Made by a program: the position numbers and the translations under genes
Assembly (NCBI RefSeq): GCF_036885605.1
Contig: NZ_CP142523.1
Location: 5,890,001-5,954,000, forward strand
DNA length: 64,000 bases
Reading direction: 5' to 3'
Source of the DNA: Janthinobacterium sp. TB1-E2
Lineage (GTDB): Bacteria > Pseudomonadota > Gammaproteobacteria > Burkholderiales > Burkholderiaceae_D
Shown here: positions 57,111-62,410 of the stretch, in pieces
How the letters are laid out: each line of letters opens with the position of its first letter
Numbering within the stretch: position 1 is the first letter of the stretch
Notes under the pieces: model-generated
The model's database searches: none
Told to the model about the DNA's origin: nothing
What the model saw: the letters and a program-made list of their open reading frames with translations, nothing else

Positions 57111-57629
57111 TTGTCGCCCGATACACACTGCCCCCGCCTGTTTTACGCGCTGTGGCCTGATGCGGCCACGCGCGCGGCCCTGGCCGCCTGGCAGGCGCGC
57201 CTGGAAGGCAAACCCGTGCGTCCGGACAAGCTGCACCTGACCCTGGCCTTCCTGGGCCAGCGCCCGGCCAGCGACCTGCCGCCCCTGCTGGACATTCTGG
57301 CGCACACACCGGCGCATCCCATGCCCCTGCTGTTCGATCACGCCAGCCATTTTACGAAGCTGGCGCTGGCCTGGGCCGCCCTGGCGCAGCCGTCGCCCGC
57401 CCTGCTGGACTTGCGCGCGGCCTGCATGCGTAACTTGGCGGAACAGGGACTGGCGCCCCGCTTCGAGCACGACCGTTTTACGCCGCACGTGACCCTGGCG
57501 CGCCAAGCGCCGCCGCCGGCCATCGGGGACTTCGCGCCCATCGCCTGGCTGGCGGACGAGCTGGTGCTGGTGGAATCGCTCAAGAGCAGCGGCGACTACC
57601 GCATCCTGGCCAGCAGGAAATTAAGCTAG
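57111..57629 (+). CDS. thpR: RNA 2',3'-cyclic phosphodiesterase (2H family)
   Basis: 172 residues. Two HxTx motifs of the 2H phosphoesterase family: HLTL near residue 45 and HVTL near residue 125; RLFYALWP at the start is typical of ThpR/LigT. Start is TTG 57111, with AGGAAAAAC ahead; no good ATG exists in frame. Overlaps tcdA (convergent) by 4 bases. Confidence 0.92.
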   Translation: MSPDTHCPRLFYALWPDAATRAALAAWQARLEGKPVRPDKLHLTLAFLGQRPASDLPPLLDILAHTPAHPMPLLFDHASHFTKLALAWAALAQPSPALLDLRAACMRNLAEQGLAPRFEHDRFTPHVTLARQAPPPAIGDFAPIAWLADELVLVESLKSSGDYRILASRKLS

Positions 57630-58483
57630 GCGGCGTCCGGTATCGACACGGGCACCTCGGACAATTTGTCCTGGCGCAAGCTTTTCAGCGCATGCGCAGC
57701 CGCCACCATGCCGAAGCTGGCCGTCACCACCACGCTGGAACCGAAGCCGGCGCAGTTCAGGCCCGTCACGCCGGCGGGCGCGCCGCCATCGATGGCGCAC
57801 GCTTCGGCGCTCTCGGGCGTGCTCAACGGTTCCATGGAAAACACGGCGTCGACATTGAATTTGTTTTTCACGCCACGGGGAAAACCATATTCGGTACGCA
57901 ACAGTTTGCGTACTCGCTTGAGCAGCGGTTCCTGTTCCGTTTTCGACAGGTCGCGCACGGCGATCAGGGTCGGGTCCGTCTGCCCGCCCGCGCTGCCGAT
58001 GGTCAGCATGGGAATGTTGCGCGCGCGGCAATATGCGATCACGGCCGCTTTCGCCTTGGCATTGTCGATGGCATCAACGAGGTAGTCGAAATCGCGCCCG
58101 CCCAGCAGTTGGTCCAGATTATCGGGGGTAATAAAATCCTCGATCTGCGTGACCTGGCAAAACGGATTGATCAGCTCGATGCGTTCGGCCAGGGCCGTGA
58201 TCTTGGCCTGGCCAATGGTGTCGCTCATGGCCTGGATCTGGCGGTTGATGTTCGATTCGGCAACATTGTCGAGATCGATCAGGGTCAGGCGGCCGATGGC
58301 GCTGCGCGCCAGCGCTTCGACGATCCAGGAACCGACGCCGCCCACGCCGATCACACACACATGGGCGGCGCGGAAACGCTCCAGCGCGGGCGCGCCGTAC
58401 AGGCGGGCGATGCCGCCGAAACGCCGCTCAAAATCGATCTCGGTCAAGTCCATGGAAATTAGTTCATTGGTGGAGGTATGCAT
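57626..58483 (-). CDS. tcdA: tRNA threonylcarbamoyladenosine dehydratase
   Basis: 285 residues. E1-like ATP enzyme that cyclises t6A37 in tRNA to ct6A. Adenylate-binding GVGGVGSW near residue 48, DLDNVAESNINRQ, DAIDNAKAKAAVI, and the Cys-containing loop GLNCAGFGS. GGIARLYG at the start is the family mark. ATG 58483 or 58453; the ribosome site is weak for both. Confidence 0.95.
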   Translation of the reverse strand: MHTSTNELISMDLTEIDFERRFGGIARLYGAPALERFRAAHVCVIGVGGVGSWIVEALARSAIGRLTLIDLDNVAESNINRQIQAMSDTIGQAKITALAERIELINPFCQVTQIEDFITPDNLDQLLGGRDFDYLVDAIDNAKAKAAVIAYCRARNIPMLTIGSAGGQTDPTLIAVRDLSKTEQEPLLKRVRKLLRTEYGFPRGVKNKFNVDAVFSMEPLSTPESAEACAIDGGAPAGVTGLNCAGFGSSVVVTASFGMVAAAHALKSLRQDKLSEVPVSIPDAA

Positions 58484-58595: not shown

Positions 58596-59795
58596 ATGAC
58601 CTCTCCCCTGTTCGACTCCGTTCCCGGCTTTGACCAGCCCATCGCCGTGCTCAAGCATTGTCACGACAAGATCCGCAAGCAGCTGACGACCCTGCAAAAA
58701 CTGCTGGGCCATTTGGCGCAGCACGGCAACACGGCGGATGCGCAGCAGGCGGCCAAGGCGGTGTTGCAATATTTCAATAAAGCCGCCCATCTGCACCATG
58801 ACGATGAAGAGCAGGACTTGATGCCGATGCTGCAAGCGACCGCCACGGGCGACGATGCCGCCCTGCTGACGACCCTGGTGCCGGAAATCCTGGCCGACCA
58901 CCAGCGCATGGACCAGGCCTGGCTGACCCTGCGCCCGGAACTGGACGCGATCGCGGCCGGTACGGGCACGCAGCTGTCCGCCGATGGCGTGGCCGCCTAC
59001 GTTGCCGCCTACCATGCCCATATGAGCAAGGAAGAGGGCCAGCTGGCGCCCATGGCCAAGCGCCTGTTCAGCGCGCAGCAGATGGAGCAGCTGGGCACGG
59101 CCATGCAGCGCCGCCGCGGCATCGCGCCCGATCTGCCAGAAGTGGCGGACGCGGCCGCCGTGCTGGCCGCCATGCGCACCGATTACGTCCAGTCCAGCCT
59201 GAGCGAGACGGACGTGCTGGCCGATCCCATCGCCCAGTTCCAGAAATGGTTTGCCGAGGCCGTCAACGCGCAAGTGATGGAGCCGAACGCCATGGACTTG
59301 TCCACCGTCAGCCCTGATGGCAAGCCCAGCTCGCGCATCGTGCTGATCAAGCAGTTCGACGAGCGGGGCTTTACCTGGTACACGAATTACCACAGCGACA
59401 AGGGCCAGCATCTCGAACACAACCCGCACGCGGCGCTGCTGTTCTTCTGGCGCGAGCTGGAGCGGCAAGTGCGCATCGAGGGCACGGTGGTAAAAACCAC
59501 GGCGGCCGAGAGCGACGAGTATTTCAATGTGCGTCCCCTGCAAAGCCGGCTGTCGGCGATTGCCTCGCAGCAAAGCGCGCCCATCGACAGCCGTGCCGCG
59601 CTGGAAAGCAATTACGAAGCCGTGGCCGCCGCCGTTGGCGACGCGCAGCCGCCGCGCCCGGCCCACTGGGGCGGCTACCGCCTGCAGCCGGAGCGCATCG
59701 AATTCTGGCAGGGGCGCCGTTCGCGCTTCCACGACCGCATCGTGTTTACGCGCGGTGCCGACGGGCAATGGAGCATGCAGCGCTTGCAACCATAA
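58596..59795 (+). CDS. pdxH: hemerythrin-domain / pyridoxamine 5'-phosphate oxidase fusion
   Basis: 399 residues, two complete domains in one frame. Residues about 15-165: HHE hemerythrin domain with di-iron ligands (LKHCHDKI, HLHHDDEEQDL, LADHQRMD, YHAHMSKEEGQ). Residues about 190-399: PNPOx/PdxH, making pyridoxal phosphate with FMN and O2 (RIVLIKQFDERGFTWYTNYH, ALLFFW, LERQVRIEG, and FHDR near the end as in E. coli PdxH). The linker RRRGIAPDLPEVADAAAVL joins them; no stop or start-like break is seen. Normal PdxH is ~215 residues. ATG 58596 follows GAGAACTCGCC. Iron- or oxygen-linked control of PLP synthesis is conceivable (inference). Confidence 0.94.
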   Translation: MTSPLFDSVPGFDQPIAVLKHCHDKIRKQLTTLQKLLGHLAQHGNTADAQQAAKAVLQYFNKAAHLHHDDEEQDLMPMLQATATGDDAALLTTLVPEILADHQRMDQAWLTLRPELDAIAAGTGTQLSADGVAAYVAAYHAHMSKEEGQLAPMAKRLFSAQQMEQLGTAMQRRRGIAPDLPEVADAAAVLAAMRTDYVQSSLSETDVLADPIAQFQKWFAEAVNAQVMEPNAMDLSTVSPDGKPSSRIVLIKQFDERGFTWYTNYHSDKGQHLEHNPHAALLFFWRELERQVRIEGTVVKTTAAESDEYFNVRPLQSRLSAIASQQSAPIDSRAALESNYEAVAAAVGDAQPPRPAHWGGYRLQPERIEFWQGRRSRFHDRIVFTRGADGQWSMQRLQP

Positions 59796-59922
59796 GCAGG
59801 ATAGCCAAGGCGGCGCAAAGCAAGCTGGTCAATATCGGTGTAGGCTATGACGTTAGAAGTTACTAAATGACATTGTTTCTCAATTTGCGGCTCCAGCCGG
59901 GGCCGCTTCATTGGAGGCCATT

Positions 59923-61170
59923 TTGTTTGTACAAAACCAACTCAAGTCCTGGATCGCCAGCATCCGCAGCAAAACCGCCTTGCCGCTACGCATAGAATTG
60001 TGGAACGGCCAGCACGTCGACCTGTCCAGCGAAGCGCCCAGAGTCACCATCCGCCTGCCAACCGTCGCCTCGGCCCGCTATCTGCTGAACCCGTCGCTGG
60101 CGAATCTGGGTTCGGCCTATGTGGAAGGCAATATCGAAGTCAAGGGCACGGCCCAGGACATGATTTCCATCTGCAATGCCCTGGCACGCAATACCCTGAA
60201 GCCGGAAGGCAAGCTGGCCCGCATCGTGCGCAGCTTTACGCACGACAAGAGCAAGGATGCGGAAGCCATCCGCTATCACTACGATGTGTCGAATGCCTTC
60301 TATGAGCAGTTTCTCGACCCCGGCCTCGTGTATTCCTGCGCCTATTTCGAACAGGGCGATGAAACCCTGGCGCAGGCGCAAGTCAAGAAAATCGACCATA
60401 TCCTGAAAAAAATCCAGCTGCAGCCGGGTCAGACCCTGCTCGACATCGGCTGCGGCTGGGGCGCGCTCGTCATGCGTGCCGCGCAGCAATATGGCGCCCG
60501 TTGCGTGGGCGTGACCCTGTCGGAAAACCAGTACGCGCTGGCGCGCGAGCGCGTGGCGGCGGCCGGCCTGGCGCACCTGATCGATATCCGCCTGCAAGAT
60601 TACCGCGACGTGACGGGCCAGTTCGACCGCATCACCAGCGTGGGCATGTTCGAGCATGTGGGCCTGAAACATTTGCCCAACTACTTTTCCATCATCAACA
60701 AGCTGCTGGCGCCGGACGGCATGGCGATGAACCACGGCATCACCTCGACCGATCCGGACAATGGCGAAACGCCGTACGGCGGCGGCGAATTCATCGAAAA
60801 ATATGTGTTCCCGCATGGCGAGCTGGCCCACATCGGCAATGTCCTGAAAACCATGCAGCAGGGGGGACTGGAAGTGCTGGACGTGGAAAACCTGCGGCGC
60901 CACTATGCGCGCACCTGCGCCCTGTGGACGGAAAATTTCGAAGCCCATGCCGAGCAGATCCGTCCGCTGGCGGGCGAACGGCGCTTCCGCATCTGGCACG
61001 TCTACCTGGCTGGTTGCGCCTATGCCTTCGAGCAAGATTTGATCAGCCTGTACCAGATCGTCTGCGTGAAGGCGGGGCGGCGTTCGTCCACCTTGCCCTG
61101 GTCGCGCAACTACATGTATGCGCAGGAGAATACGCAGGAAACAAGGCCGGCGCCCGTGCTCACGCCCTGA
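59923..61170 (+). CDS. cfa: cyclopropane-fatty-acyl-phospholipid synthase family protein
   Basis: 415 residues. SAM-dependent transfer of a methylene group to unsaturated phospholipid acyl chains. Signatures YHYDVSNAFYEQFLDPGLVYSCAYF (in part), SAM motif LLDIGCGWGALVMRA near residue 173, GMFEHVG, GGEFIEKYVFP and FRIWHVYLAGCAYAF are present. Start is TTG 59923, with GGAGG 5 bases upstream; the TTG at 59911 lies inside that ribosome site. Monocistronic, convergent with msrA. Confidence 0.93.
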   Translation: MFVQNQLKSWIASIRSKTALPLRIELWNGQHVDLSSEAPRVTIRLPTVASARYLLNPSLANLGSAYVEGNIEVKGTAQDMISICNALARNTLKPEGKLARIVRSFTHDKSKDAEAIRYHYDVSNAFYEQFLDPGLVYSCAYFEQGDETLAQAQVKKIDHILKKIQLQPGQTLLDIGCGWGALVMRAAQQYGARCVGVTLSENQYALARERVAAAGLAHLIDIRLQDYRDVTGQFDRITSVGMFEHVGLKHLPNYFSIINKLLAPDGMAMNHGITSTDPDNGETPYGGGEFIEKYVFPHGELAHIGNVLKTMQQGGLEVLDVENLRRHYARTCALWTENFEAHAEQIRPLAGERRFRIWHVYLAGCAYAFEQDLISLYQIVCVKAGRRSSTLPWSRNYMYAQENTQETRPAPVLTP

Positions 61171-61192: not shown

Positions 61193-61726
61193 TTACTTCA
61201 GGCGCCCCGCGTACATGGCGCGGAATTTCTCCACCTTGGGCGCGACGACGAGCGCGCAATAGCCCTGCAAGGGATGCTGCTCGACATAATTCTGGTGGTA
61301 CTCCTCGGCCGGATAAAAGGTGGCTGCCGGCGCCAGCTGCGTGACGATGGGCGCATCCCACACGCCGGCCATCTCGGCGAGCACCTTGCGCGCCACCTTT
61401 TCCTGCTCCGCCGACTGGTAATGGATGACGGAGCGAAATTGCGTGCCGACATCGTTGCCTTGCCGGTTCATGGTGGTGGGGTCGTGCAAAGTAAAAAAGA
61501 TTTCCAGCAAGTCGTGATAACTGATGACGGCGGGATCGAATTCCAGGCGCACGACTTCCGCGTGGCCTGTCTCGCCCGTGCACACCTGTTCATATGTGGG
61601 GTTGGGCACGCTGCCGCCCGTATAGCCGGCCTCGACGCGCGTCACGCCGCGCACTTCCGCGTACACGGCATCGAGGCACCAGAAACAGCCACCGCCGAAT
61701 ACCGCCAATTCCGTCTGTTGATGCAT
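61193..61726 (-). CDS. msrA: peptide methionine-S-sulfoxide reductase
   Basis: 177 residues. Repairs oxidised methionine (S form). Active site GGGCFWC near residue 13, EAGYTGG, GHAEVVRLEFDP, and QGNDVGTQFRS. ATG 61726 chosen because GGGAGGA precedes it; ATG 61741 would add five residues. No MsrB domain or gene adjacent. Confidence 0.96.
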   Translation of the reverse strand: MHQQTELAVFGGGCFWCLDAVYAEVRGVTRVEAGYTGGSVPNPTYEQVCTGETGHAEVVRLEFDPAVISYHDLLEIFFTLHDPTTMNRQGNDVGTQFRSVIHYQSAEQEKVARKVLAEMAGVWDAPIVTQLAPAATFYPAEEYHQNYVEQHPLQGYCALVVAPKVEKFRAMYAGRLK

Positions 61727-61903
61727 GATGTCCTCCCGCAACGCCTCTGCGACGTATCATTTCATTACTGTAACGCAAAGCGCCATAGCCTGCAGTGCCG
61801 CTTGAAACGGTGCGTGGTGCACCGCACATAAGGGGCATGCCGGCCACGATTGCGCTGGCGTGGCCGATTTTTGGCATAATGTCAGCAAATAGACAGGTCA
61901 CCC

Positions 61904-62410
61904 ATGAACACACGCTCTCCCCGCGCGCCAGCGCAAGAATTCGATACGGCACATTTCCGCCAGGCACTGTCGCAGTTTGCCACCGGCGTGACGGTCATTA
62001 CGACGCGCCTGGCCGATGGCAGTTTCCGCGGCTTGACGGCCAGTTCCTTCAATTCCGTCTCGCTGTCGCCGCCGCTGGTGCTGTGGAGCCTCGGTTCCGT
62101 GGCGAACAGCATGCCCATCTTCAGCGGCAACTCGCATTACGTCATCAACGTGCTCGGTGCCGAGCAGGCGGAACTGGCCACGCGCTTTTCACGCCGCACC
62201 CCGAACCCGTTCGACGACGTCGAATACGAACTGTCGCGCACGGGCCAGCCCATCCTGAAAGGCGCGTCGGCCTGGTTTGAATGCCACAACCGCAGCCGCT
62301 ATCCGGAAGGCGACCACGTCATTTTCGTGGGCGAAGTGGAACAATGCGCGTTTGCCGCGCAACCGCCCTTGATCTTCCACAATGGGAAGTTCAATACACC
62401 GCCAGCCTGA
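61904..62410 (+). CDS. flavin reductase family protein
   Basis: 168 residues. FMN-binding split-barrel of the HpaC/DIM6-NTAB type: FATGVTVITT near residue 25, GLTASSFNSVSLSPPLVL, INVLGAEQAELA, and HVIFVGEVE. Probably supplies reduced flavin to a monooxygenase; no such partner is beside it. AGGTC precedes ATG. CATAAT at 61875-61880 may be its -10. Confidence 0.92.
   Translation: MNTRSPRAPAQEFDTAHFRQALSQFATGVTVITTRLADGSFRGLTASSFNSVSLSPPLVLWSLGSVANSMPIFSGNSHYVINVLGAEQAELATRFSRRTPNPFDDVEYELSRTGQPILKGASAWFECHNRSRYPEGDHVIFVGEVEQCAFAAQPPLIFHNGKFNTPPA

Follow-up and report, generated by a model that had tools for sequence, protein, structure and literature searches.

Why would a hemerythrin-type domain be joined to the enzyme of the last step in pyridoxal phosphate (PLP) synthesis? 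The question is raised by a gene at 58596..59795 on the plus strand of what we call the window, the whole 64,000-nucleotide stretch of the Janthinobacterium sp. TB1-E2 genome that was analysed. The gene is a single open reading frame, with an ATG at 58596, a stop at 59793-59795 and no internal stops, and it encodes 399 residues. A first-pass annotation had described it as an HHE hemerythrin domain in frame with a complete PdxH, and the reading frame and the profile searches both bear this out, showing a hemerythrin-type domain joined to a functional domain. Pfam Hemerythrin (PF01814) matches residues 15-154 with 55.9 bits, above its gathering cut-off of 25.3, over nearly the entire profile (positions 2-127 of 127). 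Pfam PNPOx_N and PNP_phzG_C match at 220-343 and 358-399, respectively, and the NCBIfam pdxH equivalog TIGR00558 scores 269.8 bits (cut-off 180) at residues 210-399, covering model positions 1-190 of 190. Full-length orthologues support the architecture as a whole, and three parts can be delimited, all on the plus strand: an HHE four-helix domain (residues 1-174, 58596..59117), identified from PF01814, conservation and a fold match to 2p0n; a variable linker of 18 residues (175-192, 59118..59171), defined from the alignment and from a structure model in which it has partly low confidence; and a complete PdxH (PNP/PMP oxidase; residues 193-399, 59172..59792), identified from TIGR00558 and a fold match to 1jnw. 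A divergent tcdA-like gene lies upstream (57626..58483, minus strand) and a cfa-like gene downstream (59911..61170, plus strand), and these neighbours, both named by eye, served as probes for comparing loci. An msrA-like gene (61193-61741, minus strand) and a flavin-reductase-like gene (61904-62410, plus strand), also named by eye, are found nearby.

A sequencing error that removes a stop would create the same frame, and the annotation, which had called the join uninterrupted, had itself flagged this possibility together with the existence of two separate genes in close relatives. Such two-gene relatives do exist, as described below, but conservation excludes the sequencing-error half of this doubt. 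A search for the full-length architecture found a full-length, stop-free match to the fused protein in 38 of 40 Janthinobacterium genomes, and, according to a hand count of the listed matches, 101 of the 294 family genomes sampled have one match that runs through both parts without a stop; in one additional genome (G056), the match comes in two pieces within one open frame. Because the same stop-free join recurs across the genus and the family, chance and error can both be set aside. The fusion is found in Janthinobacterium, in Massilia and in their relatives, and the named loci closest to the gene studied here are from Janthinobacterium. Within the genus, the fused gene is absent from G021 (locus L168) and G028 (L169), which carry a stand-alone PdxH of around 55% identity belonging to another clade; neither tcdA nor cfa was found near it in the fetched flank, and gene replacement, or assembly or naming trouble, is possible in these two genomes. 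Another genome of the genus (G022) has both the fused gene and a stand-alone PdxH, and in two more, a further weak match resembling PdxH turned up, at 36% identity in G020 and 33% in G034. A search of plasmid DNA returned ten records with partial matches, none of which covers 80% of the query.

The two-gene relatives point to where the fusion may have come from. For 76 genomes picked across 43 family genera, we tallied the state of HHE and pdxH and obtained 11 with the fusion (counting G246, which has a break in the HHE part), 28 with a pair of adjacent genes (counting G137, in which HHE is broken), 32 without an HHE match adjoining pdxH and 5 without PdxH. For five of the 32 (G043, G046, G087, G088 and G072), the call was made from the list of matches, and a few of the 32 carry weak or partial matches to HHE at other genomic positions (e.g., G054, G067 and G072). 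In a wider collection of 132 loci with PdxH, in which some genomes occur twice because two collections were used, a script labelled 70 as fused, 32 as pairs and 30 as PdxH alone, the pair label including one broken fused gene (L118) and one interrupted HHE gene (L138). The latter, in a genome of 1.7 Mb (G137), has stops within HHE and an intact PdxH next to it, as would be expected if a reduced genome could dispense with the partner. In the pairs, the HHE gene directly precedes pdxH at the same tcdA-side locus as the fused gene, and the distance from the HHE stop to the PdxH start is mostly below about 30 bases, with five 4-base ATGA overlaps and four loci at about 48-76 bases. The PdxH of the pairs mostly begins with M-S-I-A-D-L-R or a close variant, and the same segment follows the variable linker of the fused proteins, usually with its starting Met lost (A-V-A-D-L-R-K-D-Y in Massilia). 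The HHE-pdxH pair may thus be ancestral, with the fusion arising through loss of the intergenic stop and start. A divergent upstream tcdA accompanies 67 of 70 fused genes, 27 of 31 pairs and 21 of 30 stand-alone PdxH genes, and a downstream cfa accompanies 59, 17 and 7 of them, respectively, although a few loci do not extend far enough on one side to be judged. Since the tcdA neighbour is common to all three states, the gain or loss of HHE would have taken place at a single site, in the interval that separates tcdA from pdxH.

These observations bear on the simplest functional reading, in which a co-expressed neighbour was fused neutrally by stop loss and each domain keeps its own job, with no coupling between them. 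Two neighbours in the same frame need only lose the stop between them to become fused, and 20 of the listed family matches (hand count) span both parts with at least one in-frame stop; the tether is variable, and the 21 PdxH-alone loci that keep their tcdA neighbour also fit. Nevertheless, the pair has been held together across many genera (the 28 of 76 picked genomes), and the fusion has been kept through nearly all of its genus as well as in several further genera, so that we consider neutral fusion distinctly unlikely. Separate fusion events would also speak against it, and the phylogenies leave room for them. A PdxH tree was built from the 105 rows left of the 132 loci once duplicates, near-identical copies and L118 had been taken out. 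It unites 42 fused rows in a single clade with a support of 100/99, while four others (L113, L114, L115 and L116) fall outside it, most of them on long branches. In an HHE tree of 74 rows, L113, L114 and L116 group together (98/98) beside pairs from Herminiimonas and Glaciimonas (97/85), and the well-supported branches of this tree require two changes or more, compared with one in the PdxH tree. The HHE placement hints at a second fusion event, but the AU test does not reject a single fused clade (p 0.238 for PdxH, 0.278 for HHE and 0.31 for HHE without L115).

The association of the two domains is specific to the family when set against 49 other genomes of the order in which both matches were listed: compared by eye, none of the 49 has HHE adjacent to PdxH. 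In 17 of them, the two matches share a contig with the nearest more than 100 kb apart, and in 32, they lie on different contigs, where a break is possible. Likewise, the fetched flanks (no longer than 3 kb) of 20 HHE-only loci from other families contain no PdxH. In a sample of 398 genomes of the phylum, no non-family row among the matches listed spans residues 1-399, and the longest among them (G941) covers 108-399 with an in-frame stop.

Even with a genuine join, the gene could yield two products if ribosomes also started at the join and added a separate, normal PdxH. An in-frame ATG (M193) is indeed present there in the window and in most Janthinobacterium loci, at the Leu position of the MSIADLR motif, but J. 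fluminis and strain CG3 have no ATG at this position. Across the larger set, only 24 of the 70 fused loci have an in-frame ATG among the nine codons that span the join, compared with 25 of 31 pairs, and 13 of the 70 have no ATG, GTG or TTG there at all. The predicted Shine-Dalgarno pairing is also weaker at the internal candidates than at the pdxH of the pairs (medians of -2.5 and -5.5), even if the fused gene's own start pairs weakly too (median -1.9), a point in favour of internal initiation. Because the join has no conserved start codon, an internal start yielding a separate PdxH appears unlikely, if less clearly so in Janthinobacterium, and taking sequencing artefact and second product together, we regard this explanation as next to negligible given that the same join recurs in about a third of the family sample.

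The PdxH part retains what the enzyme family would lead one to expect. Its family residues, fold and lid pattern are all present, with a Foldseek match of the model to E. coli PdxH (1jnw) at a TM of 0.90 by target and an rmsd of 4.5. The residues that are invariant in the fused rows are mostly invariant in the pair and alone rows as well, positions 196 and 398 varying most. In E. coli PdxH, Arg14 and Tyr17 form a lid over the active site (PMC10969823), and judging by spacing, R194 and Y197 would be their equivalents, which places a putative lid (59175..59186, plus strand) right at the join, in a part of the model with low confidence. A motif script found the R..[Y/F] pattern in 70 of 70 fused loci and in 31 pairs. 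The E. coli Arg23-Arg24 positions, again located by spacing (residues 203-204), are occupied by S, N, D, M or T followed by E or D in the 70 fused loci, and Arg-Arg is found in none of the 125 loci that could be placed (70 fused, 31 pairs and 24 of 30 alone), three alone loci having S-R. As these are the positions of the feedback site, PLP feedback may work otherwise in this family.

In the genome, a single contig of 6.31 Mb, no second PdxH was detected, as both a whole-protein search and a TIGR00558 search return the fused gene only. PdxJ was found (309 bits; cut-off 192.75), and no PdxS was found above its cut-off of 438, the profile matching just two fragments at about 28 bits. Since the fused protein is the only PdxH found beside PdxJ, we infer that its PdxH part is a putative PNP/PMP oxidase, and by established pathway knowledge, PLP synthesis should run through it. 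Our analysis shows a genuine fusion that matches a two-gene unit of family relatives and supplies the only PdxH detected in the genome. Elsewhere in the family, a genus with genomes of 1.2-2.6 Mb (g6; G044, G086 and 11 others) has no match to the fused protein, and hence no PdxH was found, in 13 of 13 sampled genomes; we take this genus, as a guess, to be Oxalobacter, presumably an anaerobe with no use for an O2-dependent oxidase.

The N-terminal domain carries a putative di-iron site of a particular type. Its candidate ligands, H23, H68, E72, H102, H142 and E146, were assigned by pattern and do not vary in any of the 46 fused rows of the alignment; the same holds for H21, C22, Y59, H67, D70, E71, W109, Y139 and E147, among others. 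The 29 pair rows depart from this only in one row with a gap at 21-23 and another with K at 72. The exact ligand residue can only be proposed, because H67 and E71 would suit the same HxxxE step. By pattern, the arrangement is the H-HxxxE-H-HxxxE of RIC/YtfE, whose YtfE ligands are given as H84, H129, E133, H160, H204 and E208 (PMC9268430). It is not the H-HxxxE-HxxxH-HxxxxD motif used by canonical hemerythrins and by most characterised sensors (PMC9388753): position 106, in place of the fifth His, is D in 41 and E in 5 of the 46 fused rows, and H142 is followed by E146/E147, with no Asp at the proper distance. The O2-binding hemerythrin motif, which is also the iron-ligand motif of hemerythrin-domain sensors, is therefore absent from all 46 rows, and the earlier claim that all expected His/Glu ligands are visible holds for the six of the HHE/RIC pattern but not for the fifth His and the HxxxxD of O2 carriers. 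Membership in the RIC/YtfE family itself was considered and rejected, as TIGR03652 gives a partial match of 32.8 bits against a cut-off of 204.7, and ScdA_N is not among the Pfam matches; at least one RIC, that of N. gonorrhoeae, is also described without the ScdA_N domain (PMC9268430). The PA2171 persister protein family was likewise rejected (NF053874, 30.8 bits against an equivalog cut-off of 190).

The nature of this site weighs on the idea that the domain stores or delivers O2, raising its local concentration for the oxidase when oxygen is low, much as bacteriohemerythrin reportedly does for methane monooxygenase. PdxH requires O2, and bacteriohemerythrin has been reported to supply O2 to pMMO membranes in vitro (PMC12607906). 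However, neither the fifth His nor the HxxxxD of an O2-binding hemerythrin is present in the putative site, and the flux through PdxH is small, so that we think this role very improbable.

How the two domains are connected is informative as well. The linker is 11-49 residues long in the relatives, ignoring one value of -77 that was a motif misfire. Median dN/dS values were calculated by the Nei-Gojobori method after dropping pairs beyond preset divergence limits, and for the HHE domain, linker and PdxH, they are 0.158, 0.443 and 0.138 in 24 Janthinobacterium loci, 0.241, 0.478 and 0.145 in the Massilia group (25 loci, some of them under other names), and 0.348, 0.728 and 0.182 in the 70 fused loci. 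Both domains are under purifying selection, which is weaker on the linker, and HHE is less strictly constrained than PdxH in the wider set. An AlphaFold model built from a 54-row alignment has a mean pLDDT of 86.8 and a pTM of 0.51, and shows a helical bundle followed by a C-terminal part of mixed helix and strand; low-confidence stretches lie at 181-184 and 189-199, and at this pTM the relative placement of the two domains is not trustworthy. When the HHE domain was modelled by itself with no alignment, the prediction was poor (mean pLDDT 66) and was left unused. In the full model, the HHE part is of the NMB1532 type, with a Foldseek match to 2p0n at an rmsd of 1.4, a TM of 0.94 by target and 28% identity.

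These data allow us to weigh a sensor of redox state, O2 or NO, in which oxidation of the di-iron site or ligand binding would shift the lid residues R194 and Y197 and tune PLP synthesis, in the manner in which a hemerythrin domain acts on the diguanylate cyclase Bhr-DGC. Such a sensor is attractive because the lid pattern is kept at the join: the two parts meet next to the stretch that corresponds by spacing to the E. coli lid, and R..[Y/F] is universal among the fused loci. N-terminal hemerythrin sensors fused to enzymes are also known (PMC9388753), and the absence of Arg-Arg at the feedback positions of the 70 fused loci also counts in its favour. Nevertheless, the variable and low-pLDDT linker speaks against a transmitted conformational change, the ligand motif is unlike that of characterised sensors, many relatives have separate proteins, the lid pattern is shared by the 31 pairs, and Arg-Arg is also missing from PdxH without HHE. 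On balance, we find a sensor of this kind unlikely.

The best explanation overall, and a quite plausible one although we stop short of calling it probable, is a single polypeptide in which a putative di-iron centre acts by proximity, through local redox, peroxide or NO chemistry at PdxH. The putative di-iron four-helix domain would sit on a flexible tether extending from the N-terminal lid side of PdxH, and its centre would most likely act by being close rather than by passing on a rigid conformational signal. A RIC/HHE-type site could handle or report the small reactive species involved in the half-reaction of FMN with O2, such as the H2O2 from each turnover or the NO or O2 that reaches the reduced flavin, and the outcome might be protection of PdxH and of freshly made PLP, with the fusion setting a 1:1 stoichiometry. 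We favour proximity over a rigid sensor because linker length varies, because the linkers have low model confidence and because many relatives have separate proteins or no HHE at all. Local redox, peroxide or NO chemistry is ranked first because PNPOx reduces O2 to H2O2 (PMC10969823) and because a mycobacterial hemerythrin-like protein is reported to have weak catalase and NO peroxidase activity (PMC8913304). Several observations nonetheless count against this explanation. PdxH is described as a slow enzyme (PMC10969823), and its H2O2 output should therefore be small; the partner also seems dispensable, given the 32 of 76 genomes without HHE adjoining pdxH, and these two points together argue against a large protective role. 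The HHE domain is less constrained than PdxH over the 70 fused loci (0.348 against 0.182), and in L138, HHE is broken while its neighbour PdxH is intact. By inference from all this evidence, local chemistry ranks ahead of a sensor, a sensor ahead of neutral co-expression, and neutral co-expression ahead of O2 delivery. We know of no activity or metal content for either the fused protein or NMB1532.

A broader proposal is that a putative redox-, peroxide- or NO-responsive di-iron domain directly controls or protects the final step in making PLP throughout this clade, and does so as a separate HHE partner in the relatives; we advance it tentatively, as a serious possibility. If it were true, the supply of vitamin B6 would be set by iron together with oxygen or NO status through one bifunctional protein. 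More generally, vitamin B6 may be linked to the chemistry of iron or oxygen, and the fusion suggests a connection between di-iron chemistry and vitamin B6 synthesis that can be tested. By the gene-fusion argument, it also gives the NMB1532-type HHE group its first partner. Since no second PdxH was detected in the genome, a practical consequence is that the effect of disabling the iron site could be followed through a vitamin B6 phenotype.

In the literature searched, which took in few subscription papers, we found no description of an HHE-PdxH fusion, in agreement with the annotation's remark that no characterised protein is known to have this architecture. One survey counted 56 architectures with O2-binding hemerythrin, and its main text has no word starting with "pyridox" (PMC4919030). 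A Janthinobacterium "hemerythrin-like metal-binding domain protein", JAB4_23200, is given among quorum-sensing-regulated genes (PMC5080296), and this may be the fused gene or another one. No paper on NMB1532 by name was found in the same searches.

Several known systems resemble parts of the fused protein. Like the PdxH/PNPO enzymes (TIGR00558; E. coli 1jnw and human 1nrg), it has a complete catalytic domain with the conserved residues and the lid R..Y, but it differs from them in its N-terminal HHE domain and in the replacement, by spacing, of the E. coli Arg23-Arg24. With NMB1532 of Neisseria meningitidis (PDB 2p0n), it shares the HHE fold and conserved blocks, whereas NMB1532 is a stand-alone protein whose solved structure has no assigned function. 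RIC/YtfE proteins have the same six-residue pattern at nearly the same spacing, and the fused HHE is set apart from them by its missing ScdA_N match and its TIGR03652 score below the cut-off. The mycobacterial Rv2633c and Mka HLP are hemerythrin-like di-iron proteins, a likeness in which the di-iron site on our side is putative, and catalase activity is reported for both and NO peroxidase activity for Mka HLP (PMC8913304); they have no PdxH part and a coordination variant of their own. The chimeric sensors DcrH, Bhr-DGC and Bhr-HD-GYP also join a hemerythrin-type domain to another domain, but they use another ligand motif, and their partner is a signalling domain, while here it is a biosynthetic flavin oxidase. 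Both domains and the existence of hemerythrin-domain chimeras were already known, and what appears to be new is an HHE domain joined to PdxH.
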